Shown here in pieces: positions 25,584 to 48,948 of a stretch of DNA of 64,000 bases. How positions within the stretch are numbered: the stretch's first letter is position 1; each line of letters starts with the position of its first letter. The DNA comes from Patescibacteria group bacterium (GTDB lineage Bacteria > Patescibacteriota > Microgenomatia > UBA1406 > GWC2-37-13): the NCBI GenBank assembly GCA_026004415.1, contig BPJC01000001.1:124001-188000 (forward strand), in the 5' to 3' direction. Below the pieces are notes generated by a model. It was not told the origin of the DNA. It ran no database searches and worked only from the letters and a program-made list of their open reading frames with translations. The position numbers and the translations under genes are program-made.

Positions 25584-25591
25584 AATTGTCA

Positions 25592-25599
25592 ATTATAAT
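25592..25599. promoter_or_regulatory. Palindromic divergent -10 element shared by the DUF2298 gene and valS
   Basis: ATTATAAT is its own reverse complement, so a perfect TATAAT hexamer reads on both strands: 25594-25599 toward valS (ATG 25604) and the complement of 25592-25597 toward the DUF2298 gene (ATG at 25583). The two start codons are only 20 bp apart. Confidence 0.5.
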
Positions 25600-25603
25600 A
25601 AAA

Positions 25604-27766
25604 ATGGATAAAAAATTTAAACCAAAGGATTGGGAAGACAAAATAATAAAACTTTGGGAAGAAAAAAAATATTTTCAAGCAAAGGTTAATAAAGATAAAG
25701 AGCCTTTTGTAATAATTCTTCCGCCACCTAATGCCAATGGCAGTCTGCATGTAGGGCATGCAATGTATGTTTACGAAGATATCTTAATCCGTTATAACAA
25801 GTTTAATGGTAGAGAGGTTCTTTGGTTGCCAGGAGAGGATCATGCGGGATTTGAAACCTGGTATGTTTTTGAAAAAGAGTTAAAAAAGCAAGGCAAAAGC
25901 AAACTTGATTTTGATAGAGATGTGCTTTACCAGATGGTTTACGATTTTGTAAATGAAAAAAGAGGTATAATGCGCAATCAGTTAAAAAGATTGGGATTTG
26001 CTTTGGACTGGAGCAAATCTAAATTTACTTTAGATGAAGATATTGTTCATATAGTTTATTTGACATTTAAAAAATTATTTGATCAAGGTCTTGTTTATAG
26101 AGGTTTAAGAGTTGTTAATTTTTGTGTCTCGTGTCAGACTTCGTTTTCAGATCTTGAGGTTGAGTATCAGGAGGAAAAAAGCAAACTTTGGACTATTAAG
26201 TATTTGTTGTCAGACAAATCAGGTTATATTGCTGTTGCCACAACGCGACCAGAGACTATGATTGGTGATACAGCTGTTGCTGTAAATCCTGATGATAGCA
26301 GATATAAAAAACTTATAGGCAAAACAGTAAAACTTCCTTTAGTGGGTAGAGAAATACCTATTATTGCAGATTCTGCTGTTGATCCCAATTTTGGCACAGG
26401 CGCTGTTAAGGTTACTCCAGCACATAGCGATGTTGATTGGCAGATAGCTCAAAGACACAAACTGCCTTTGGTTCAGATTATAGATTTTGATGGCAGAGCA
26501 AATGAAAATGCTTTGTCTTACAAAGGACTTAGTGTGTCTGAGTTTAGAACTGCTGTTGTTTCAGATCTTAAAAAAAAAGGTTATTTAATTTCTGAAAAAG
26601 ATTATACTCATAGAGTTGGAAAATGTTATAAATGCAAAACAACGATAGAACCATTAGCTAAAGAGCAATGGTTTGTAAAGATAAAGCCATTAGTTGATAG
26701 AGTGAAACCATTATTGGAAAAAGACAAGGTAAAGATCTATCCAAAGAGATTTAAGACCCAGTTGTTAAACTGGCTTGATAAACTTTATGATTGGAATATT
26801 TCAAGACAGATTGTCTGGGGAATAAGAATACCTGCTTATCAGTGTCAGGTTAAAGGCAATCAAGAATGTCAGCAAAAAGATGGTTGGTTTGTATCAATTG
26901 AAACTCCGAGTCAATGTCCTTACTGTTCTTCTTCAGATTTTAGTCAAGATGAAGATACTTTTGATACTTGGTTTTCTTCTGGTCAATGGCCTTATGCAAC
27001 TTTAATGTCTTTAGCCTCTGAAGGTAAAAACTTGCAATCGTTGGACGAGTATAAAAGGTTGAGTTTTTTTCAATATTTTTATCCAACTACAGTTATGGAA
27101 ACAGGTTTTGATATTTTATCAAGATGGGTCTCCAGAATGCTGATGTTAGGCTTGTTTTCAGTTGGTAAAACGCCTTTTTATAATGTTTTATTGCATGGTT
27201 TGGTTAGGGATCAGTATGGCCAGAAGATGTCAAAGAGCAAGGGAAATGTTATTGATCCTTTGGAATTGGTAGATAAGTATGGCGCCGATGCCTTAAGGGC
27301 GGCTTTAATCTTTAATACTAAAGTTGGCTCTGATGTTAATATGTCAGAGGATAAGGTAGTTGCGATGAGAAATTTTGCCAATAAAGTTTGGAATATTGGT
27401 AGGTTTATCTATCTTGGCTTAAACAATGACAAAGAGGCAGACAGCTTTGAAACAGATTCTTTAGATGATATTGTTGAAAATCTGCACAAAGAGTTTCAAG
27501 ATTTAAAAAAGAAGTATTCTGACAGTTTAAAAAAGTATAATCTGACTATGGCTTTTGATCTGTTGTACGATTTTACTTGGCATAGGCTTGCAGATTATTA
27601 CTTGGAAAAATTAAAAGACGCTGTTTGGCAAGGCGATGAAAAGGTTTTAGCTAGTTTAAAGACAGTCTATTTATCATTATTGCAGATGTTGAATCCTTAT
27701 ATGCCTTTTGTTACAGAGGCGGTTTGTTTAAGTATTGAAAATAGGAGTCTTTATGACATTGACTAA
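25604..27766 (+). CDS. valS: Valine--tRNA ligase, C-terminally short
   Basis: ValS charges tRNA-Val. Class I motifs are present: PPPNANGSLHVGHAM (HIGH) and GQKMSKSKGNVIDP (KMSKS), plus an editing domain with TTRPETMIGDTAVAVNP and a zinc-like cysteine cluster (CYKCKT; CQ...C; CPYC). NFCVSCQTSFSDLEVEY and GEDHAGFETW fit ValS rather than IleS. ATG 25604 gives 720 aa; an in-frame TTG at 25586 would run into the divergent promoter. The protein ends soon after MLNPYMPFVTEAV, so the end of the anticodon-binding region and the C-terminal coiled coil of typical 850-950 aa ValS are absent. Confidence 0.93.
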   Translation: MDKKFKPKDWEDKIIKLWEEKKYFQAKVNKDKEPFVIILPPPNANGSLHVGHAMYVYEDILIRYNKFNGREVLWLPGEDHAGFETWYVFEKELKKQGKSKLDFDRDVLYQMVYDFVNEKRGIMRNQLKRLGFALDWSKSKFTLDEDIVHIVYLTFKKLFDQGLVYRGLRVVNFCVSCQTSFSDLEVEYQEEKSKLWTIKYLLSDKSGYIAVATTRPETMIGDTAVAVNPDDSRYKKLIGKTVKLPLVGREIPIIADSAVDPNFGTGAVKVTPAHSDVDWQIAQRHKLPLVQIIDFDGRANENALSYKGLSVSEFRTAVVSDLKKKGYLISEKDYTHRVGKCYKCKTTIEPLAKEQWFVKIKPLVDRVKPLLEKDKVKIYPKRFKTQLLNWLDKLYDWNISRQIVWGIRIPAYQCQVKGNQECQQKDGWFVSIETPSQCPYCSSSDFSQDEDTFDTWFSSGQWPYATLMSLASEGKNLQSLDEYKRLSFFQYFYPTTVMETGFDILSRWVSRMLMLGLFSVGKTPFYNVLLHGLVRDQYGQKMSKSKGNVIDPLELVDKYGADALRAALIFNTKVGSDVNMSEDKVVAMRNFANKVWNIGRFIYLGLNNDKEADSFETDSLDDIVENLHKEFQDLKKKYSDSLKKYNLTMAFDLLYDFTWHRLADYYLEKLKDAVWQGDEKVLASLKTVYLSLLQMLNPYMPFVTEAVCLSIENRSLYDID

Positions 27767-32462: not shown

Positions 32463-34004
32463 TTGTTGGTGTTAATCTTAGTTGTTTTTACTTTTTTGTT
32501 TACAGAAACTGGTTTTGGCTATTGAAAACTCAACAATGAACTCAATTTATAAATATGTTGAAGGAAAAAAAGACTCTAATGAAGAGTCAGAAAAAATCTC
32601 AGGCAGTCAGGGATTATATGAGACAAACTTAACTAGTCAGAACTCAACTGAAGATGTCTGCGTTTTTGCTAATATTAAATCTCCGTATGATGAAGATAAA
32701 TATCCTAAGAAATTTTATTATATTAATAAGTACTATGATTTTCAACCTTATGTTATATATTGGAATGATTGTAATAATGAAAAATATTTGTGTTCTTCTT
32801 TTGATTTTGTGTATTTTTTAAATATTTCACAATTGAATCAACCTGAAGGAGTATATTCAGACAAAGATGTGTTTCAACTTACTTTTTCTTTAGGTGAAGA
32901 GATAATATTAGGAGGAAAAATGGTTTGGCCAAAATCAGATGGATCAATTTTAAATGAAAGTCAGCATATTATGGAAGGGATAAGAATTAATGACAAATTA
33001 AAGCTTATTAAGTTTCTAACTTTAATTAGAGGAGTCAACAAGAGGCAAACAGTACATTTTCGCATCTGATACTGACTATTTAGGAAAATAATAATCAAAT
33101 AGCTTATATTAAGCTTAAATGTGGTGAAAAGGGAAGATTGTCTGTTGTCGAGGGTCCATTAATAAAAAGTAAAGATGAAATTGCTCGTGCTCAAGAGAAC
33201 ATGAATTATAAATTTGAAGTAACAAATTATGAAATTTTAGCACCAGATTTAAACTGTGGTAAGGAAGGAATGTCTTGTTGTCCGCCCAAGGAGATTAAAA
33301 GATACTTAGTCGAGAAATTTAGTTTAACTAATACTATTAGAAAAATTCCATTGATAGGACAACCAATAGCTGATCAGATTGAGAAGTCTGTCAATTATCT
33401 CATCAGGGAAACCTCAACTGATAATCAGTCATTGCCATCTAGTCAAATTAGTAAAGAAAATTTTTGTCTGCAGGGTTTTCCTGTCATTTATGAGTATGAT
33501 GATAAAGGTAATAGAGTTGCTAGATACTTAAAACCTCGTGATTTCAATGGAGATTTAATTGATTTGTTGAAAAATAAAGCCTGTACTTGTCTTACATCTT
33601 TTGATGAAACAGATACAGTCTACCTAAAGGATTCTTATACTTATTGCCAGAATTTGGGTACAGATTCTCAATTAGCTAGCATTTGTGCAGAAAATGTTAA
33701 GACTTGCAATAGCAATAATGGTATTTATACTGCACTTGGTTGTATTGATCCAAGCTTAGAGGGAGTATTATCATTAATCTCTACTGTTTTTATGGGACTC
33801 TCAGGTATATTTGCATTGTTTTGTCTTATTTTTTCTGCTTTTTTAATTCAAATCTCTGCTGGAAATGAAAACAAGGTAGCAGAATCAAAAACTAAAATAA
33901 GAAAATGTATTACCGGATTAATTGTTATAATATTTTCAATGTTTGTGTTTGATCAGATTTTTAGACTCATTTTTGGTAGTTCAGTTTTTAATTATCTTAT
34001 TTAA
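32463..34004 (+). pseudogene. Broken secreted protein with a C-terminal VirB2-like membrane hairpin
   Basis: A frame starting TTG 32463 encodes a signal-peptide-like stretch (LVLILVVFTFLFTETGFG) but stops. The mature sequence continues in another frame to a stop near 33067, then RGKQYIFASDTDYLGK in a third, and finally CGEKGRLSVVEGPL in the frame that runs to 34004. So at least three frameshifts separate parts of one protein. The last part ends in ALGCIDPSLEGVLSLIS, a hydrophobic helix, the loop SAGNENKVAESKTKIRKC and a second helix, just like the intact paralogue downstream. The C-terminal 288-aa piece could still be translated but would lack a signal peptide. Confidence 0.75.
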
Positions 34005-34023
34005 TAAAGTGAAAGTTTTAAAA

Positions 34024-36456
34024 ATGGGTTTTTTTAAAAAAAAATTGTTTATAACATTTTTTTTGTTAATATTACTAGATTCAGCGGTCTCAATCACTGT
34101 TTTTTCTCAGACTTCTGATATGGTATCTTCAAATGTCTTGAGAGAATCTAAAGTTTGTATTCTTCACAATAGTTTATATAGTTTTAATAAATCAGATACT
34201 TACAATGATCCAACCTCACCAGTGTACAGGTTTTATCCTTCTTATTCAGATAAAGTTTATCAGGATAAGGAAGAAGATAGATTGATTTTGGTTGGTAATT
34301 GTAGAAAAGATAAAAAAGGCCTTTTTATTAATGTGAATAATCTTATAGTTTGTGATACTTTTAATTTCATTCCTACTGATATTTCACAAGAAAATCGTTT
34401 GGGTGGAAATAAAATGGATCTTATTTTTCGACCAGGTGAAAAAATTACACTATTTAAGTCACATGAGTTAACTTTTTACAAAAAAGGAAGAGATAAAGAT
34501 ATTGATGAAAAAGATTTTATTAATTATTTGTATGAATTTAGCTCAGATGGTTTAAAAAAAGTTATGAGAAATGGAAACTATGATTTGACTCTAGAAAAAT
34601 TATTTCCAAATGCTAATGAAAAAAAAATTTATGCTATTAAATTTTCAGATATCGAAAATTCATATTCAAAGACCCCTAATTATAAGTTTGAAAGCTCAAT
34701 GCTACAGGAGGTTTCTTTGGCTGGAGACTCGGTTTTGTTTTCTGATCTTAATGAAAACGAAGACACAGTTGAACTTTCTTGCGGTAGTTCAGGTTATTGG
34801 TCTTTAGAAAAAATCACTGACTCCATAGATTATGAGGATGTAATCGGTAAGGTTGAGGAGCCACTAAAAAACTCACAGCCTAGACCAGAGTATTCAAATA
34901 TTTCGAATAATGCCGGAGTCTGCCTTCTTCATAATAACTTATATGCAGTTGATGAAAATACTGCTAAAGAAGATCCAAAACAGAGTCAAGTAGATACCCG
35001 TTATAGATTTTTTCCTTCTTCTCCAGATAACCGAGAAGACAGATTAATTTTAGTTAGTAATTGTAATGTTGTTAACTCCGGTGATAAAGCCAGCGTAGTT
35101 TGTGATACTTTTAATTCTATTCCCAACTTTGAAGCTATTTCTAATTTAGAAAATCGTTTTTGGAATGAAAATAATGATGCGATTGGAAGCAAAATGAAAC
35201 TCCTTTTTCAACCAGATCAAAAGATGTTTCTTTTTAAGTCTCATAAATTAACTTTCCACCAAGATGGAGATTTTAATGAGCAAAATTTCATTTCATATTT
35301 ATATGAACTTAGTTCGAATGGTTTAAAAAGGGTGCTAAGAGAAGGAGAAGTGAATCCAACCTTAAAAGAATTATTTTCAAATATCAACAGAAAAATTTAT
35401 GCTCTTAAATTTTCAGAGATCAAAAATTTAACTTCAACTAACAATGAGTCAACAGATTATTGGTTTGATAGCTTAATGCTAGATGAGTTTTCTTCAGCGT
35501 TAGATATTGGTTTTATTCAGACTATCGAAAATAACAATTCTATAGAATTTGTTGAGCTTTCTTGCAGTGGTTTAGGTTATTGGTCTGCGGATAAAAAGAC
35601 AACCATAATTAATCCTATAGATTCTCAAGATCTAGATAATATACTTAAAAAGGCTGACAAGCAATTACTGAATGCCGAATCTATAGGTCCGCTTGATGAT
35701 CAAATGCCTAAGGAAAGATGTGGCTCTATAAATCAACCTTGCTGTCATCCTGATGCCCTAAAAAAGTTTATAGAAGATGAGAATAAAATTGTCGGATTAG
35801 GTATAATCAAAAAAATCCCTTTTATAGGTGAAGATATCTATAATTATCTGGAACAGGTAAATGAATATACAGGGGAGATTATTAATAAAAAATATGGCCC
35901 CAACAGCGAGTTTTCCGCTGAAAAGTACTGTCTTCAAGGTGTGCCTATGCTTGAATATGATGGAGTTAGACGAATGTTGTCAAAAGATGATGTCGAGTCT
36001 AACAGCATTGAATATTTGAATAAGTATCTCGGGTGTAGGTGTTCCGATAAAATCGATTCTGAAGAACGGGTCTTGAATACTGCCAGTTTTAATTATTGCA
36101 ATAATCTTAATAATATATCTTTAACGAATAAGTGTTATATCAATATTGATCAATGCTCAAAGGTCGGTGGATTTTACTCTGCTCTAGGTTGTATTAGTCC
36201 TTCTTTAGAGGGTCTGTTTGGTTTAATTTCAGGAATTTTGTTGTCACTGGTTGGCACCTTTTCAGTCTTATGTTTGGTTTATGCGGGTTTTTTGGTTCAA
36301 ACATCTTCCGGAAATACAGACCAGGTTTCTAAGGCCAGGCAAATCGCAGTAAGGTGTCTGACTGGTTTGCTTGTTATAATCTTTGTCAGTTTTATTTTAG
36401 ATACTCTTTTTAGAGTATTATTTGGAGACACGATTTTTAAGTTTCTGTTATTTTAG
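34024..36456 (+). CDS. Large secreted protein with tandem repeats and a C-terminal VirB2/TrbC-like membrane hairpin
   Basis: An 810-aa protein. ATG 34024 gives a clear signal peptide (MGFFKKKLFITFFLLILLD); the frame is open further upstream but overlaps the previous gene. Two tandem copies of a roughly 220-residue domain follow, at about 43-262 and 298-523, each running from VCxLHNxLYxx through RLILVxNC, VCDTFN, KSHxLTF and ending VELSCxxxGYWS. Then come a cysteine-rich part (RCGSINQPCCHPDAL from about 565) and ALGCISPSLEG leading into two membrane helices separated by TSSGNTDQVSKARQIA, the layout of VirB2/TrbC pilins. Likely an outward-facing surface protein anchored through a pilin-like hairpin. 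No function is known to me. Confidence 0.75.
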   Translation: MGFFKKKLFITFFLLILLDSAVSITVFSQTSDMVSSNVLRESKVCILHNSLYSFNKSDTYNDPTSPVYRFYPSYSDKVYQDKEEDRLILVGNCRKDKKGLFINVNNLIVCDTFNFIPTDISQENRLGGNKMDLIFRPGEKITLFKSHELTFYKKGRDKDIDEKDFINYLYEFSSDGLKKVMRNGNYDLTLEKLFPNANEKKIYAIKFSDIENSYSKTPNYKFESSMLQEVSLAGDSVLFSDLNENEDTVELSCGSSGYWSLEKITDSIDYEDVIGKVEEPLKNSQPRPEYSNISNNAGVCLLHNNLYAVDENTAKEDPKQSQVDTRYRFFPSSPDNREDRLILVSNCNVVNSGDKASVVCDTFNSIPNFEAISNLENRFWNENNDAIGSKMKLLFQPDQKMFLFKSHKLTFHQDGDFNEQNFISYLYELSSNGLKRVLREGEVNPTLKELFSNINRKIYALKFSEIKNLTSTNNESTDYWFDSLMLDEFSSALDIGFIQTIENNNSIEFVELSCSGLGYWSADKKTTIINPIDSQDLDNILKKADKQLLNAESIGPLDDQMPKERCGSINQPCCHPDALKKFIEDENKIVGLGIIKKIPFIGEDIYNYLEQVNEYTGEIINKKYGPNSEFSAEKYCLQGVPMLEYDGVRRMLSKDDVESNSIEYLNKYLGCRCSDKIDSEERVLNTASFNYCNNLNNISLTNKCYINIDQCSKVGGFYSALGCISPSLEGLFGLISGILLSLVGTFSVLCLVYAGFLVQTSSGNTDQVSKARQIAVRCLTGLLVIIFVSFILDTLFRVLFGDTIFKFLLF

Positions 36457-36460
36457 TTGT

Positions 36461-38272
36461 TTACTTATTGTTGCCTTCGATTATCTCGCTTGTTCTTCTT
36501 GCTATTGTTTGTTGTCTTTGCTGTTGAATATAATCATTTATTGCATCCAATACCTCATTGTGTTTGATCAATCCAGTTTTTTCACCAATTTTTTCTAATA
36601 ATGGATTAGTTTGCAAGTATCGTTTTGCTACGTCTTTAAATCCAATCAAAGCTGGAACACTCTTAAGAGGAGCAAAAATATTAAATTCAGAGACTCCGGT
36701 ATCCTGAAGTCCAAGCATTGATCTTAGTTTAGTTGCTATTTTAGGAATCGAAAAGATAAGGGCAAATCCTATTAATATAGGCAGGGTAAATGTTTCTATC
36801 TGAATTCCCAATGGGCTAAGGAAAAAGCCTCCTCTGGAGGGCAGATCAGTCATAATATAATTTGCCACCATTAATATGGATACTGTAACAGGAAAAATAA
36901 TTAGTGTTGCAATTATTTTTTTAATCCAAGAGCTAAAGGCATTATTGCCTGGTATAACATTCGGTAGTATCAGAATTGGAGCAAACATTGTATAAAAAAT
37001 AAGCAAAAGGTAATTATAGATAATAAATCCAGATATAGCAAAACTTAAAAATAAGATTGAAATAGTTGCAATAAGAAAGATTGCTAGAGGTAATAGTCCT
37101 ATAGTTATAATAGAGTTAAATATAACCTTCCAAAAACCAGAAATTCCATCTTTTCCGATAAGTTTTGCTACTGCGTCTATCAAATTAAACGCAATGTTAG
37201 TTGATCCTGCAATTAATGTGTATACAACTAATCCCGATGCGGCAACTAATATTGCTTCAACATATTTTCTAATCTCTAAAGGCAGTAGGTTTATATAAGA
37301 TTCAGTTAGTAAATAAGCTGGTCCAGGTTGATTTATTATTTTAAAAACATCCCAAACTCCCGCATTGAGCACTTCTCTAATTTTGCTTCTTTTAACCTCT
37401 GGCAGATACTGTTGTATAAGAGTTTCTGTTTCCTTTATACAGTCTTCTTGGTTGGTTGATTCAAAACATCCATGTAGATACTTTAGGGCTTCGTCTCTTA
37501 AGTTTTCATCTTGGAAAACATTGTTTATTAGTTGTTGATTATTGTTGATGTAATCAGTTATAGATGGTTTGTAAAAAATGCTTATACTTAATCCTGTGGT
37601 GATGTACATTACGTCTATTAGAAAACCAACTATAGGAAAGGATAAATAAATTAGAATTATTGTTATTACAATACGAGGTAGGATTGTTTGCAAAGTTATC
37701 TCTGTTTGTGTACCTATAGGAACGCCGAATAAAATAATAAATCCTATAAACATACTTGCCAGGATAAGTACAAAAAATGCTAAGTTTCTGAACTTGGCCC
37801 AGATATCATAAATTGGCAGAATTGCTGTTAATCCTGTTCCGGTTATAATGCCTTGTAGGTTTGTTTGAGCATATGTTTTAGGTATTAGGTTAACTTCTTT
37901 TAGTTTTGCCAGCGTCCAAGCTGTTCCTGATGGAGGTAGATTAGAAAAAGCCAGTTCTATTGGTTTTGATAAATAGTAGGTCAAAGGTTTGTTATTTGTT
38001 GATTCACAGAAGTATCCTGTTAAGGTACAGTAAACTTGTTCTATTGAAATTGCTGTGTTTGGTCCTAATTTGTCGGCAACATTTTTAATAGCTTTTTGGG
38101 CTAATTCAAGATTATAGTCTCTTTGCCTAACTGCAGTTTTATTTAGCATTTGTTCCTTATTTGCGGCTTTGTAGAATAAGGTTACTATTATAATTAGTAC
38201 AGCCAAATATAACAGTATTTTGTAGAAAATCTTTGTTAAGTTTAGTAATTGTTTATAAAATAGCAACAACAT
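36461..38272 (-). CDS. VirB6/TrbL-like polytopic membrane protein
   Basis: A 603-aa membrane protein with an N-terminal helix, an exposed region of about 120 residues, and then several strongly hydrophobic segments grouped as in VirB6/TrbL inner-membrane channel components of type IV secretion systems: LAFFVLILASMFIGFIILFG, RIVITIILIYLSFPIVGFLI, and a cluster around LLPLAIFLIATISILFLSF. The C-terminal tail is soluble and Gln/Arg-rich. There is no enzyme motif. It converges on the repeat/VirB2-like protein gene with a 4-bp gap and is co-oriented, 1 bp apart, with the lytic-transglycosylase-like gene. The call rests on topology and context. Confidence 0.6.
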   Translation of the reverse strand: MLLLFYKQLLNLTKIFYKILLYLAVLIIIVTLFYKAANKEQMLNKTAVRQRDYNLELAQKAIKNVADKLGPNTAISIEQVYCTLTGYFCESTNNKPLTYYLSKPIELAFSNLPPSGTAWTLAKLKEVNLIPKTYAQTNLQGIITGTGLTAILPIYDIWAKFRNLAFFVLILASMFIGFIILFGVPIGTQTEITLQTILPRIVITIILIYLSFPIVGFLIDVMYITTGLSISIFYKPSITDYINNNQQLINNVFQDENLRDEALKYLHGCFESTNQEDCIKETETLIQQYLPEVKRSKIREVLNAGVWDVFKIINQPGPAYLLTESYINLLPLEIRKYVEAILVAASGLVVYTLIAGSTNIAFNLIDAVAKLIGKDGISGFWKVIFNSIITIGLLPLAIFLIATISILFLSFAISGFIIYNYLLLIFYTMFAPILILPNVIPGNNAFSSWIKKIIATLIIFPVTVSILMVANYIMTDLPSRGGFFLSPLGIQIETFTLPILIGFALIFSIPKIATKLRSMLGLQDTGVSEFNIFAPLKSVPALIGFKDVAKRYLQTNPLLEKIGEKTGLIKHNEVLDAINDYIQQQRQQTIARRTSEIIEGNNK

Positions 38273-38273
38273 A

Positions 38274-39680
38274 TTAATCTCCTAAACTTTGATAAATATC
38301 ATACACAAACTCACAGTATGTTTTATTGTTTAATCTTGCGTAAGTTGCTGTACAGTTGCCATAATATCTTACTGCTGCTCGGAAAACTTCATCTTTTGTC
38401 CAGTTGGTATTTTTGGATTTTGTAGCGCTGTCTGTTTTTATTTTTTCTGCCGCGGCATAAAGGTTGTCTAGCAAGTTGCAGACATTTGGATCTCTTTTTT
38501 CAGCCTCATATTTGTTTACTGCATCGCCGTATGTAAGCCAGGCATTTGGACAGCCTCCTTTTGTGTTAAGACACTCCCCGTTCCAACAGCACTGTGAGCA
38601 GCTATAATCACCTTTGTTGTCATAACCTATTGTCATCTGCATTGGTCCTGCCGCTGAACAGATATTAGGACCACATCCTGGAATGACATAGTTTGGTTTG
38701 ATATAAGTCTCGATTTCATAAGATGATAGATTTAGATAATTAGGGCCTTCTATTATTAATATTGCTTTAAAAACTCCAAAGGGAACACCTACTTTTTGGC
38801 TTATGTATGATAATAATGTGTCGAGTGTTGGGTTTTTAGGCAGGTTTGAGATTTGTTTTTGAATACTGTTTTGAACTAAGTTTTGAAGTCTATTAAGATC
38901 GTCTACTGAACTTTGGTTTGGATTTTGCAGATCCTCCAATAGTTCTTCTCTGTTAATATCTATGTTTTGGAAAGCAGTTATGGCTTTTTCAATTTGATCA
39001 GTGATTGATCCTTCATTTATTTTTCTGTTTCTGCTGAAAAAAATCTCATTTCTCTCTTGCATTAATAGTTTTGGGTCTTGGTCAATGTATAATGAGTTAA
39101 ACTGCTTCATTAGTTTTATCTTGCCTTCGTTGTTTATAACTGTTTTTACAGAGTCAATATCAGTTACAATTATCTCGCCTAAAGCATTATTAACTACTAT
39201 GTTGTTTGGTATTGGAACTGCTGTTGGTGTAAGAGTTCCAATTGTTTGGGTTTGGTTTTGTTTAGAATTATTAGTGATGATTGTTAAGTCAGGTTGATAC
39301 GAAAAATTTATAAAAGCGTTTTTTATCTCTTCCGCAGCTGATTCTTTAAATGGTAAGGCGTATAATGTCTGCAGTTTAGTTTTAACAATTTGTTCTTTTT
39401 CTTCAGTTTTTGTCGTATTATCGATCTGTTCTTTAAAGTTTAGTTCCAATATTTTTTTTTGAACATCTGATAATTTATTTGTTTCAGTTCTTGATACTTG
39501 ATTATCGTTTTCATTTGGTAGGGTATTTTCTCCCATATTGTTTTCAACATTTCCTGTTAAATCAGTACTTTGATCGATATTCTTTCGGCTTAAAATAAAG
39601 TATAACGCAATTGCCAAAATTAAAACTATTATTATTGCAACAATTAAAAATTTTTTTATTAGTTCAATTTTATTATCCAC
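38274..39680 (-). CDS. Membrane-anchored lytic-transglycosylase-like (VirB1-like) protein
   Basis: A 468-aa protein from a GTG start, with one N-terminal membrane helix (residues 10-31) and a long polar stalk. From about residue 300 it has a lysozyme-fold-like domain: PFGVFKAILIIEGPNYLNL with a candidate catalytic Glu, then CSAAGPMQMTIG, matching the G-x-MQ motif of transglycosylases. Inserted after it is a cysteine-rich loop (GDYSCSQCCWNGECLNTKGGC). VirB1-type enzymes open the peptidoglycan for secretion machines, which fits the neighbouring VirB6-like gene, 1 bp downstream. The cysteines imply disulfides outside the membrane. Confidence 0.6.
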   Translation of the reverse strand: MDNKIELIKKFLIVAIIIVLILAIALYFILSRKNIDQSTDLTGNVENNMGENTLPNENDNQVSRTETNKLSDVQKKILELNFKEQIDNTTKTEEKEQIVKTKLQTLYALPFKESAAEEIKNAFINFSYQPDLTIITNNSKQNQTQTIGTLTPTAVPIPNNIVVNNALGEIIVTDIDSVKTVINNEGKIKLMKQFNSLYIDQDPKLLMQERNEIFFSRNRKINEGSITDQIEKAITAFQNIDINREELLEDLQNPNQSSVDDLNRLQNLVQNSIQKQISNLPKNPTLDTLLSYISQKVGVPFGVFKAILIIEGPNYLNLSSYEIETYIKPNYVIPGCGPNICSAAGPMQMTIGYDNKGDYSCSQCCWNGECLNTKGGCPNAWLTYGDAVNKYEAEKRDPNVCNLLDNLYAAAEKIKTDSATKSKNTNWTKDEVFRAAVRYYGNCTATYARLNNKTYCEFVYDIYQSLGD

Positions 39681-39720: not shown

Positions 39721-42700
39721 ATGTTAAATTTTATTAAAAAGATATCGTCAAATTCAAGTCAAAATAATAATCAGAATAAAAATGATGACAATTCCAATAC
39801 TGTAGTTGACCAGACAAAAGTAACAGTTACTAATCAAACAACTCAAACAACTCCAGCAAATGTGACTCAAGGTGATCAAACTGTTATTGATGCTCAAACG
39901 CAAAATATTGGCAAAAACACAGCAGATGTTAGCGCAGATGTTGGATCTAGTGATCAGGTTGTGCAGAGATTAGTTCAAGGTCAGCAAGTGGTTGAAACAG
40001 TTGGACAACCTGCTGTATCTTTAGGTCAGGCACAAACTCAGTCAGAAGAAAAGATTGATCAGCAGGTTTCCAGCTCTGTGCCGTCTGAGAGCAATGATTT
40101 AGATCTCAAAGCAGATGTGGGCGCTAATCAACCTGCAGATAATACAGCAAAACAGTCTGATCTTTCTGCGGTTTCTGGTTCTCAGAGTTCTGATCAAGAA
40201 CAGAAAAAAGTTGATTCTGTAAACCAATCACAGAACAAAAATGACGAGATGTCAAAAACAGAAAAGATTGATTTTTTAACTCACTTGACCCAAAGATCCA
40301 ACAAGGTTATGTTTACAGCTCAACAAAAGGCTAAAGAATTAGGAGATGAAAATGTAGATACTCAGCATTTGTTGTTTGGTTTAATTAAAGACCCTGGCAT
40401 TTACTCTTTACTTACAGAAGTTGGTGTCCAGGTTCAAATAGTAGAGGCTGAATTAGCCAGATTTTTAACTGCAAAAAACAAACCAGTAAAGACTACAGCT
40501 ATACAACCAACTCCTCGAGTTAAAAAGGTGTTGTCAGATTCACTTGTAATAGCTAGGAAACAAGGGTATGAGTTTATTTCTCCTGAGCATATATTGATCG
40601 CTGTTTATAAAGAAGGTGATGGAGTGGGCGCCAGAGTTTTGCAAAAAGTAGGTTTGGATATAAACAAACTAGAGAAAAAAGTTTTAGGTCAGAACAAGAT
40701 TGAACAAAAAGATAATCAAGATAAGTCGTCGGGTGGCTTTGATCTATCGCAGTACACAATAGATCTTACAGAAAAAGCCGCTCAGGGTTTGCTTGATCCT
40801 GTTGTTGAGAGATCAGATATTATTGAGAGAATAATTCATATATTATCAAGAAGAAGAAAAAACAACCCTGTTTTAACAGGCGAGGCTGGTGTCGGTAAAA
40901 CAGCTATTGTTGAAGGCCTAGCTCAAAGAATTGTTAAAAAAGAGGTTCCAGATAATCTTTTGGATAAAAAGATTTTGCAACTTGATCTGATGAGTGTTAT
41001 AGCAGGAGCAAGTCATAGAGGAGAGTTTGAGGAAAGAATGAAACAGATTATAGAGCAAGTGTCTGGCAGTCAGGGACAGATTATACTGTTTATAGATGAA
41101 ATACATAATATAGTAGGAGCAGGAGCCGCAGGTGATAGCGGTTTAGATGCATCAAACTTTTTAAAACCTGCTTTAGCTAGAGGAGAGATACAAGTATTGG
41201 GAGCAACGACTATAGATGAATATAGAAAATATATAGAAAAAGATGCGGCATTAGAAAGACGTTTTCAACCAGTGTTTGTCCCGGAGCCTACTGTTGAACA
41301 AGCAGTTAATATGCTTAAGGCTTTAAAGGATAAATATGAGGCTTATCATAAAGTAAAGATTCCAGATTCAGCGCTTGAGACTGCTGTTGTTTTGTCCAAA
41401 AGATATGTAGGCGGTAGATTTTTGCCCGACAAGGCAGTTGATCTTATAGACGAGGCGGCCGCAGCTGTAAGGCTACCTTTAATATCTTTGCCAGAAGAGA
41501 TTAAAACATTAGAACAAAAACTGTCTTTATTGAATCAAGAACTTGATGAAGCTAAAAAATCTAAAAATAAGGTTACAGCTAAGAACTTAATGAAAAAAAT
41601 CCAAGATACTCAGGATTTGTTAAAACAAAAACAGGAAGAGTATGCTATGGCAAAAGCTAATTCTAATATTGAAGTTACAGATGAGATTATAAAGAGAGTA
41701 ATCTCCTCTTGGACAGGTATTCCTTTATCTAAAATATCTGCCTCTGAAACTGAAAAATTATTAAATCTTGAGCAGATAATTCATGAGAGACTGATTGACC
41801 AGGAAGGCGCTGTTAAATCAGTATCAGAGGCGATTAGAAGGTCTCGCGCTGGTTTAAAGTCGGAAAAAAGACCTATTGGAAGTTTTGTGTTTTTAGGACC
41901 CACAGGTGTTGGAAAAACAGAGCTGGCTAAGACTTTGGCAGAGGTTCTTTTTGGCGATGAGCTGTCTTTAATTAGATTTGATATGACTGAGTATATGCAA
42001 AAACATGAGGTTGCCAAACTTTTGGGAGCTCCACCGGGATATGTAGGTTATGAAGAAGGAGGCAAACTTACAGAAGCTGTCAGAACTAAACCTTACTCTG
42101 TTGTTTTGTTCGATGAGATAGAGAAGGCACATCCTGATATTTTTAATATCTTGCTTCAGATCTTAGATGATGGCAGACTTACTGATAATAAGGGCAGGGT
42201 TATTTCATTTAAAAACACAATAGTTATCTGTACTTCAAATATAGGCACTAAAACTATTCAAAAGGAGCTTCTTAAAGAAGGCTTAAGCGAAGTGGAACCA
42301 GAAAGAATTATAGATGTACTGCAACAGGATGGCGACAGCTATAAAGTTTTTAAAGCAAACAAAATTTATATTAAAATCAAAGACTCCAGTTGGCAAAAAC
42401 AGTCTTTGTCAGATTTTTTCTCAGATAAAAAAATAACAGACTCTCAACTTATAAGTTTTCCTCACAAAATAGATACTTTAACTTATACAGCAGATAAAGA
42501 GGTTATCTCATCAGGAGATTTATTATACACAAGAGATCTTAAATCAAAAGAGTATACAACCTCAAGTTTAAAAGATTACTTTAAAGGTTTTAGCATTGTG
42601 TCAAAAACAGAACATGAGCCTGATTTTCCAGTTGAAAGATGGAAAACCCATTACTTTGATCAGACAAAAGAGGTAATTACATTAAGAGATATGGTTTGGG

Positions 42701-43827
42701 TTCGTAAACTTAAAGAGAAGACTTGGACATTAATGAGTCTAAAAGATTACTTTGCCAATGAAACAGTTGTAAACTCCCAAGACAAACTGCCAACAGATTA
42801 TCTTGATCTGCATACTCGAATTAACAATAAAGAGGCTGTAATAGTAAAAGAAAAGGTTTGGTTAAAAGAAGAAGATGGATGGAAGTCTTATTTATTATCA
42901 GAGTTTTTAGGAGAGTATCCTTGGCAAAAAGATAAAAATGAGTTGAGTAAAGTTGAAGAAGATGTTTACAAGAGAATTAAGGCTAAAGTAATGGATGAGT
43001 TAGGTCAATTTTTCAGACCTGAGTTAATTAATAGATTTGATGAAGTTATTGTTTTCGAACCTTTAAAGTATGAACATATGAAAGAGATTGTTAAACTGCA
43101 GTTAAAGGATTTGGAAAAGAGATTATCAGAACAAGGTTTTGGTTTTAGTTATACACAAAGAGCAATTTTGGCAATAGTTAAACTTGGATTTGACCCAGTC
43201 TTTGGAGCAAGACCATTAAGAAGAGCCATACAGATAAACATTGAAAATGTGTTATCTACCCAGATTATCTCTGGAAGTCTAAAACCTGGAGATTTTATAG
43301 AGTTAGATTATGAAAATAACAAATTTGTTTTCAACAGGATAGATCCAGCGTTAATTGAGTTGGAGCAAACAGATTACAATATCAGCAGGCAAAGTTTTGT
43401 CTGTAAAAACTGCGGACACAGTTTTGAAACTGAAGTAGTTGAGAATGCCACTATAATCTGTTCTAAATGTTTGGCATATGGAGATAAACTTGAGCCAGTT
43501 AGTCAATCAAAAGAGAATACAAGCAAAGACTCATCTGTTAAAACTCAAAAAGAAGAAAGTATTGAAAATTCAGATCAGCAAAAGACAAAATTATCAAACA
43601 ATGAAACAGGTTTAATTGATAATGACCAAGATCAGTCTGAAACTCAAAAACAGGTTAATCAAAACAATAAAACACAACCTGATAATAATAAAGCAACTAA
43701 TCAGATGTCTGCCAATGGAACTGCTGATATTGACACAGGCAGTTTATCTGTTGAAGACAAATTGCAGAACCAAGAACAGACCTCAGAAAATGCAGAGTCC
43801 AATCAAACAGTAGCAGTTAGTAAATAA
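39721..43827 (+). CDS. ClpC/ClpB-type AAA+ unfoldase with repeat insertion in the second ATPase domain and a C-terminal zinc ribbon
   Basis: A 1,368-aa protein, far larger than usual ClpC (about 820). Residues 1-180 are low-complexity Gln/Asn/Thr/Ser. Residues 185-325 are a Clp N domain. AAA-1 has Walker [14 protein letters not shown] (387-399) and Walker [13 protein letters not shown]; a short middle region follows. AAA-2 has [13 protein letters not shown] (726-738), [13 protein letters not shown] and sensor TSNIGT. At about 862-1078 a roughly 215-residue insertion with four repeats intervenes before the arginine-finger region [13 protein letters not shown]. The D2 small domain is followed by a zinc ribbon (C1228, C1231, C1247, C1250) and a 110-residue polar tail. 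No clpP is nearby. Both ATPase sites look intact. Confidence 0.9.
42337..42930 (+). repeat. Four imperfect protein repeats inside the Clp AAA-2 domain
   Basis: Translated units begin near residues 873, 926, 983 and 1037. Each has the pattern V-x(4-6)-hydrophobic-Y/W-x-(R/K)-x-L-K-x(2-4)-W/Y-x(3)-SL-x-D/E-Y/F-F. Examples: [40 protein letters not shown]. The period is about 53-57 residues and the last unit is shorter. Confidence 0.75.
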
Positions 43828-44157
43828 ATGTATATGTTGTTTTATACTCTGTTGGCGCAAAGAATAGTAATAAATGGCAAAGAGATAAAGGGTCCTTTAA
43901 GGGGAGATATTACAACTGTTTGGGATTTGCTTTCATTATTGTTTAATTTTGGTTTAGGTTTTGTAGGTATTATATTGGTAATTACTTTTATTATGGCTGG
44001 TTATGATCTTATTAACTCTCAGGGTAATCCAGATAAGTTTTCTGAAGCTAGGAAAAAATTAACAGGAGCAATTATTGGTTTAGTTCTTTTAAGTTTTTCT
44101 TTTGTTATTGTAAGAATTGTTGCTTATATCTTTAATCTTCAAGGTCCAGGTTTTTAA
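43828..44157 (+). CDS. Small VirB2/TrbC-like pilin-type membrane protein
   Basis: A 109-aa protein whose ATG directly follows the Clp stop codon with no gap; a second ATG two codons later is equally possible. It has an N-terminal hydrophobic start, then helix 1 (FGLGFVGIILVITFIMAGYD), the polar loop NSQGNPDKFSEARKKL and helix 2 (AIIGLVLLSFSFVIVRIVAY). This is the two-helix layout with a G-N-P-x-K loop seen in CPR VirB2/TrbC-like proteins and in the C-terminal hairpins of the two large proteins at 32.5-36.5 kb. Tight coupling to the Clp gene suggests co-expression. Its 3' end overlaps the convergent nucleotidyltransferase gene by 26 nt. Confidence 0.7.
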   Translation: MYMLFYTLLAQRIVINGKEIKGPLRGDITTVWDLLSLLFNFGLGFVGIILVITFIMAGYDLINSQGNPDKFSEARKKLTGAIIGLVLLSFSFVIVRIVAYIFNLQGPGF

Positions 44158-47687: not shown

Positions 47688-48948
47688 TTATTCTTTATAG
47701 AGCGTAACTGTTTTGTTAGACCAAACTGGATTCTTTTTACTACACTGGTCATAACAGATTTCAAATCTGTTCATAGAGCTTTCATCTTCTTTGAATTTAT
47801 GAACAAACTTTAGCAGATACAAAACACCGTTTCTGTATTCATAATGAGGCGTTGACCGCAAGCTAAAGGTTCTGTCGGTTGAAGTTTTTGCTATAATTTC
47901 AGCTAATTTGACTTGATTTGATATAGATCCTGAAGATAAACTAAATACTCTGTTTTCAATTAAAGTAATTATTAGGCAGAAAACTACACTAGATAAAAAT
48001 AGTTTATTTTTGATAATTTTAAAGTTTAGTTTCTGTGCTATTAGCAAATAAAAAAATGGCAAGAATAAAGCCAAGTAATAATTAAAGTCTCTTTTGAAGA
48101 TAATAAAACTGAAAAAAAATGATATAAGCATAATTTTATTTTTTAAGTCTGATTTTTTTAGCAAGTACATTAGGATTAAAAGAAAAAGAATTAAGTGAAG
48201 CAGTTGGTTTTTAAAAATAAAGGAAAATAAAACTTTCCAGCATCAGATAAAACTTCTATTATCTTCAGAGAGGAATCTTTAGTAAATGAGCCTTTTTTAG
48301 CTATTTCTATTGAGTTTATTAGCAAAACATTATCGTGTCTAATATTAAAGATTATAAAAGGAGCAACTGCCAAGAAAAAACCTAGAATAAAGTTGATTAA
48401 TTGCTTTGGTTTTTGAATAAAGCAGTAAAAACAGTAAAGGCATAAAAAGAACAAACCATAATGGATCTGGAAATAGCAGAAAGCAAAAATCCGAATAAAA
48501 TTGTTAAATACGAGTTGTTAGTTATTTGTTTGAATAATTTGTTAAATATTAAGTAATAACTAAAACCTAAAAGCAAAGCTAGATTAAGATTCCAAATATA
48601 AGTTGTATGTACCAGACTAGAGCTAGAAAAACTAAAGACGAGTAGAAAAAACAACTTTTGGTATTTGTTTAATTCTTTTAAGTTAACTACTATTACGCAG
48701 ATTGACGAGTAAAGCAATATAAACAACATTGTTATCGTATATGGGTGTTTTGAAACTAGACCAAAGATTAGCAATATCTTTTTATTCTCAATCATACTTT
48801 GCAGAGCTATTAAGTCTCTGCCTTGATCTCCTCAGAATACAGCAAAATTTAATCCATAAATAAGCCTTAATATGAACCCAGATGAGATAATTAAAAAAAA
48901 GAAATATGTTATAGTTTGCTTTTTAAATAAGTTCTTTTTTGCCAACAT
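47688..48948 (-). pseudogene. Broken ArnT/GT39-like membrane glycosyltransferase
   Basis: ATG 48948 starts MLAKKNLFKKQTITYFFFL but runs into TGA after NFAVF near 48834; the protein resumes in another frame with GDQGRDLIALQSM, the Asp-containing loop typical of GT39-like CPR enzymes. Further shifts occur near 48425 (TVFTALF to QKPKQLINFILG) and near 48240 (before FSFIFKNQLLHLILF). The last piece ends at 47688. With at least three lesions this gene is inactive unless the assembly is faulty. Its start overlaps the end of the next upstream gene by 40 nt. Confidence 0.8.

Follow-up and report, generated by a model that had tools for sequence, protein, structure and literature searches.

A ClpC-like protein with a predicted four-bladed propeller at the ClpP-docking loop, encoded in a T4SS locus of Patescibacteria

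Results

Gene content of the locus

The window, that is, the whole stretch of 64,000 nucleotides analyzed, belongs to a Patescibacteria bacterium with a tiny genome (99.6% complete). An open reading frame on its plus strand (39721-43827) encodes a ClpC-like double-ring unfoldase of 1368 aa, in which the Pfam domains Clp_N, AAA, AAA_lid_9, AAA_2 and ClpB_D2-small were identified. As the original prediction had stated, a VirB2-like gene follows directly: it starts one base past the stop codon, encodes a T4SS pilin (43828-44157, plus strand; PF18895, E = 3.7e-7) and is a conserved neighbor. On the other side, a divergent gene (38274-39680, minus strand) encodes a protein of 468 aa with no Pfam match, similar to lytic transglycosylases by eye only, and next to it lies the gene of a polytopic membrane protein of 603 aa (36461-38272, minus strand), a conserved neighbor that is VirB6-like by topology only. 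Beyond these, the plus strand (33138-36456) encodes two secreted proteins whose C-terminal segments are T4SS pilin-like, one matching PF18895 (33138-34004) and the other joined to it by profile (33943-36456).

Two further features were recorded in the window. A valyl-tRNA synthetase of 726 aa (25586-27766) extends to about position 686-701 of models with approximately 860 positions, and its usual C-terminal part seems to be missing. On the minus strand (47688-48795), three short membrane-protein ORFs, consecutive or overlapping, look like a single broken gene.

Architecture of the Clp protein

The N-terminal region (39721-40275) consists of a short hydrophobic-basic motif, MLNFIKK (MAGFFDFIKKP in most relatives), and a polar linker with an omega of 0.54. 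It is followed by the Clp N-terminal domain with two Clp_N repeats (40276-40755; PF02861), a first AAA+ module (40756-41466; Walker A at 40879, Walker B at 41083, arginine finger at 41251) and a middle domain (41467-41670) of the short ClpC type, with 68 residues vs. 131 in the ClpB of the same genome. The second AAA+ module (D2) is divided into a part that reaches to sensor-1 (41671-42249; Walker A at 41896, pore loop GYVGY at 42037, Walker B at 42100, sensor-1 at 42232) and a remainder with a long helix and the small domain (42937-43365; arginine finger NRFDE at 43030, sensor-2 GARPLRR at 43204). A zinc-ribbon-like motif of four cysteines (CxxC-x15-CxxC, residues 1228-1250; 43402-43470) and a polar C-terminal tail (43471-43824) complete the protein, all on the plus strand; these elements, like the polar N-terminal tail, had been noticed in the original prediction and are present. 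The zinc ribbon is conserved in most relatives, whether the insert described below is present or not. Both rings have intact Walker, sensor, pore-loop and arginine-finger motifs, and the best PDB sequence match of the protein was ClpC of B. subtilis.

The N-terminus of the Clp (39721-39741 of the window) and those of VirB4 proteins (loci L102-L132) are alike, with a short stretch of hydrophobic and aromatic character, then KK and a polar linker, as if the two had a localization signal in common.

Other AAA+ proteins were also observed. A second, divergent and membrane-anchored Clp-like ATPase, 725-801 aa long and with N-terminal hydrophobic segments, is encoded in the same genome (contig C2, L003:1234-3411) and at L130:13461-15866. 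Only a few genes separate the main Clp from a homologue detected with the Clp profile in Levyibacteriota and in two other genomes. The same genome also encodes (contig C1, L004:1189-2244) a 351-aa ORF with a Lon-type AAA+ domain and no protease domain in that ORF, to which a 339-aa ORF (L173:4306-5325) is similar.

Fold of the insert

The AAA_2 profile match is split by an insert, with profile positions 1-135 before it and 136-166 after it. The spacing from sensor-1 (TSNIGT, residues 838-843) to the arginine-finger region (FFRPELINR, from residue 1097) is 260 residues, vs. 41-57 in most insert-free relatives (41-115 across ten of the same family), which establishes that the insertion proposed between these two motifs is real. 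It comprises approximately 215 residues (42292-42936, plus strand), of which residues 866-1065, approximately, would form the folded part. For internal self-matches of 20 residues, the best score was 57 (offset of 57 residues), and 200 shuffles gave at most 44. Based on an alignment of 47 insert sequences taken from loci of public genomes, AlphaFold2 predicted one compact domain (pLDDT 94.5, pTM 0.89), a propeller of four blades with four strands each, every blade closed by a short helix. In this model the blades correspond to positions 42316-42429, 42472-42591, 42643-42756 and 42805-42915, all on the plus strand. The four repeats that had been described thus exist as repeats, but as blades of one domain and not as separate units.

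A Foldseek search of the predicted structure against the PDB returned hemopexin-like domains as the first 19 matches (E values from 1e-7 to 7e-6, TM scores of up to 0.73 on the target), including MMP-9, MMP-2, hemopexin, MMP-13 and vitronectin, with sequence identities of 8-16%. Given these low identities, the absence of a Pfam hemopexin match in 26 insert members and the absence of any cysteine from the propeller of the window, a shared hemopexin-like fold is indicated rather than membership of the family. Sequence searches with the insert (PDB profile, Pfam on the 26 members, PHROGs) returned only the Clp flank and chance matches, and matches to SLA1 (E values of 0.3-0.5) were taken as chance as well. 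When the whole second module was modeled with its insert, the AAA+ fold was kept, the D2 part matched ClpC and ClpB, and the propeller was flanked by a short helix and by the long arginine-finger helix, its orientation being uncertain at this level of confidence (pLDDT 81, pTM 0.62).

Other origins of the extra sequence were considered. An intein or spliced element is at odds with a propeller fold, a conserved domain and the lack of an intein match in Pfam; no Pfam or PDB sequence match pointed to an adaptor domain known from ClpC; and the occurrence of the insert in dozens of independent genomes argues against misassembly. Tandem-repeat expansion was rejected, every complete copy being four-bladed with length variation in the linkers; in relatives, long low-complexity loops stand between the blades.

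The ClpP-docking loop

In the alignment with B. subtilis ClpC, the match breaks at residue 667 and restarts at 680, so that the insert stands at residues 668-679. The VGF motif of that protein falls in this gap, as aligned with an insert-free query composed of the L063 loop and the flank from the window. In S. aureus ClpC, the loop 660-680 (AGF at 671-673) is the anchor for ClpP, which is no longer bound once the loop is mutated (PMC12521514). The PhiGF motif was found in none of 72 insert-bearing ClpC-like rows, some of which represent the same record in two collections, when the linkers beside the insert were inspected. At the corresponding position, all five cyanobacterial ClpC controls carried LGF or IGF. 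No canonical PhiGF was found in the insert-free Microgenomatia relatives examined, one of which had VGY.

The genome that contains the window gave no match to ClpP (PF00574), a search that was positive in 12 of 14 control genomes. Among the 72 genomes of the family, ClpP was clearly present in two, one insert-bearing and one insert-free, and five more matches were weak and partial. Of the traits that mark ClpC and ClpA as partners of a protease, the protein has the N domain, the two AAA+ modules and the short middle domain, and lacks the PhiGF loop, as its genome lacks ClpP: it is an unfoldase of ClpC architecture without the ClpP-docking trait. The position of the insert and a genome without ClpP support the suggestion that the insert replaces ClpP docking.

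The same position could also suit a regulatory or assembly module, which would tune the ATPase from the site between sensor-1 and the arginine finger or cap the ring against a peptidase. The insert does join the long helix to the arginine finger, a helix described as allosteric in S. aureus ClpC (PMC12521514), and it has been lost without loss of the Clp gene. A cap, however, would be superfluous in genomes without ClpP, and PhiGF is missing from the insert-free relatives anyway; a regulatory or assembly role is considered quite unlikely.

Distribution and selection

A contig scan with the single insert sequence gave no match, while a scan based on the alignment detected 65 loci, most of them insert-bearing. 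Within the family (Roizmanbacteria), matches reaching into the propeller were obtained in 37 of 72 genomes, and matches to the flanks only in 25. Across the class, 47 of 373 genomes matched, belonging to the same family and to families f2, f3, f25, f4 and f21, with weaker partial matches in f6 and f44; named records were from Roizmanbacteria, Gottesmanbacteria and some genomes labelled Woesebacteria. The closest relatives of the window outside its own genus are without the insert. In a phylogeny built from the Clp core, presence of the insert requires 8 changes, at least 5 of them on well-supported branches, a history explained most simply by one old gain and several losses; exchange between lineages may be an alternative.

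Comparison with a congener yielded omega values, approximate because dS is near saturation, of around 0.10 for the insert, 0.015 for the ATPase modules and 0.54-0.69 for the polar tails and linkers, by which measure the insert is under purifying selection. These results bear on whether the propeller could be a lineage-specific decoration of little function, tolerated because the docking loop was already free to vary. Such a reading would accommodate the multiple losses of the insert, the low-complexity loops between blades in relatives, and the loss from the lineage of the window of several positions conserved family-wide; it is nevertheless very improbable, as the four blades, the key residues and the fold are kept over several families and the insert evolves under far lower omega than the linkers.

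Repeats related to the Clp propeller were also observed in predicted secreted dockerin proteins (L178:3-2375; L179:3632-5992, minus strand; L180:265-3228), which are of DUF2961, GH42-like and pectate-lyase-like types. Judging from these sequences, the propeller module is common to an intracellular ATPase and to extracellular proteins. Its relatives in predicted secreted enzymes suggest a general binding domain, which makes a substrate-binding role possible. The propeller might accordingly be a receptor for substrates or adaptors, which would bind its clients next to the ring, whether pilins, effectors or misfolded proteins, and deliver them to the pore. Binding is the usual role in dockerin and polysaccharide-enzyme proteins, and the flexibility of Clp docking loops could let the domain swing; against this, the domain is attached where ClpP would bind, across the ring from the entry pore, and Clp_N, the usual adaptor site, is retained. 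A receptor appears rather unlikely.

A 352-aa ORF (L173:9667-10725) from another family of the order contains a degenerate D2 that still carries the propeller, with a damaged Walker A and neither pore loop nor arginine finger; it is either a decaying gene or a propeller retained without its motor.

Conservation of the T4SS neighborhood

All 33 family loci whose contig was long enough for the test had a T4SS pilin gene no more than five ORFs from the Clp, usually downstream and on the same strand, and the VirB6-like polytopic protein was usual on the opposite side. In Gottesmanbacteria, PrgI and VirB4 are instead encoded divergently from the Clp, and a pilin near the Clp was also found in Levyibacteriota and in genomes G086, G106 and G121. 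In families f4 and f21 of the class, which carry the insert, a T4SS neighbor was not found with the profiles used. VirB4 of the same genome as the window lies on the same contig as the Clp, approximately 110 kb away. That the linkage to the T4SS recurs with the genes differently arranged speaks for a functional tie. Within the family loci, neighbors were alike for insert-bearing and insert-free Clps, and the association with the T4SS is independent of the insert, since the latter was repeatedly lost from Clps that retain the neighborhood. A T4SS-specific role of the insert itself is thus unsupported.

In many relatives, an integral membrane protein of approximately 225 aa with the motif LPGTxLHExxHF is encoded between the Clp and the pilin (L037:11718-12410; L116:11973-12683). 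There were 61 related ORFs in the loci examined, and the gene adjoins the Clp in Roizmanbacteria and Gottesmanbacteria. This recurrence would fit a propeller that docks the ring on an HExxH integral membrane protease, a membrane-bound replacement of ClpP. The protein was not found, however, in the genome of the window, its presence does not track that of the insert, and Pfam assigns it no family; it was rejected as an obligate partner, and a docking role of this kind is judged improbable.

Discussion

A Clp ring takes in its substrate at D1 and releases it from D2, the side on which the peptidase is held by the docking loops; a domain grafted at the D2 docking loop would lie at the exit mouth of the ring. 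As ClpP is gone, the insert is most simply read as a module that docks some new partner, for which the linkage to the T4SS points first to a membrane or secretion component. Recruitment of a partner by the insert, as originally proposed, is plausible, while a grip on a secretion substrate, also proposed there, would be speculative. The explanation we favor, with about an even chance of being right, is that the protein is an active, ClpP-independent unfoldase of ClpC type belonging to the T4SS locus, whose propellers dock a non-protease partner at the exit face.

By this mechanism, the flexible loop that plugs ClpA and ClpC into ClpP would have been exchanged in this lineage for a hemopexin-like four-bladed propeller, and a putative hexamer would bear six of them around the exit mouth of the second ring. 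Proteins would most likely be unfolded and threaded from the N-domain side to D2, as in other Clps. The propellers would seat the exit face on a partner other than a protease, a membrane or T4SS component being the most plausible one, and the emerging chain would be passed to, or pulled from, the secretion machine instead of a protease.

It is established that protein substrates have to unfold, at least in part, for T4SS passage (PMC12857230; see also PMC5826034). A dedicated Clp-type unfoldase for a T4SS was not described in the open-licence papers searched, and the same kind of literature search found no description of a Clp/Hsp100 protein with a propeller in the ClpP-docking loop. A Clp gene that is freed from ClpP, and that different families of a large patescibacterial class retain in the T4SS locus, constitutes a concrete candidate for a T4SS unfoldase. 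Moreover, the exchange of a docking loop for a folded propeller provides a clean test case, set up by nature, for the re-docking of an unfoldase ring to another partner.

Among known systems, the protein resembles the ClpC proteins of B. subtilis and S. aureus and ClpC1 in its two Clp_N repeats, two AAA+ modules, 68-residue middle domain and catalytic motifs, and differs from them in having a propeller for a docking loop, long polar tails, a zinc ribbon and a T4SS locus, with no PhiGF and no genomic ClpP. ClpIb of Actinomycetota (PMC10149685) is likewise a ClpC-like double ring without LGF and is thought to be an independent unfoldase, but its loop has approximately 5 residues, vs. a folded domain of 215 residues here. 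Identity with the ClpB disaggregase was rejected, based on a score of 929 bits vs. an equivalog cut-off of 1232 and on the 68-residue middle domain. ClpV/TssH of type VI secretion is a Clp ATPase that serves a secretion system without ClpP, as is proposed here; the protein is not ClpV/TssH, however, as it scored 696 bits vs. a TssH equivalog cut-off of 885, lies with a different secretion system and carries a propeller that ClpV/TssH lacks. The predicted insert has four blades, each with a short terminal helix, as do the hemopexin-like domains of hemopexin, vitronectin and the MMP C-termini; unlike these, it has no cysteine for the usual disulphide between blades 1 and 4, and it is intracellular and nested in an ATPase.

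The neighboring genes agree with the T4SS described for Patescibacteria (PMC12102498), with its VirB2 pilin arrays, PrgI/VirB3 and VirB4; a word search for Clp gave no mention in that paper or in a 2025 T4SS review. The closest functional model would be HSP101 of the Plasmodium PTEX, a peptidase-free double-ring Hsp100 that sits on a membrane pore and threads exported proteins (PMC7355975), docking of the bacterial ring being proposed by analogy. HSP101 differs in being eukaryotic, in its ClpB-type middle domain and in docking through its C-terminal domains by beta-strand addition. A full bacterial counterpart of the PTEX motor, in which six propellers would seat the exit face on the T4SS channel and proteins would be unfolded and fed into, or extracted from, an epibiotic T4SS, is a tentative and somewhat doubtful extension of this comparison.
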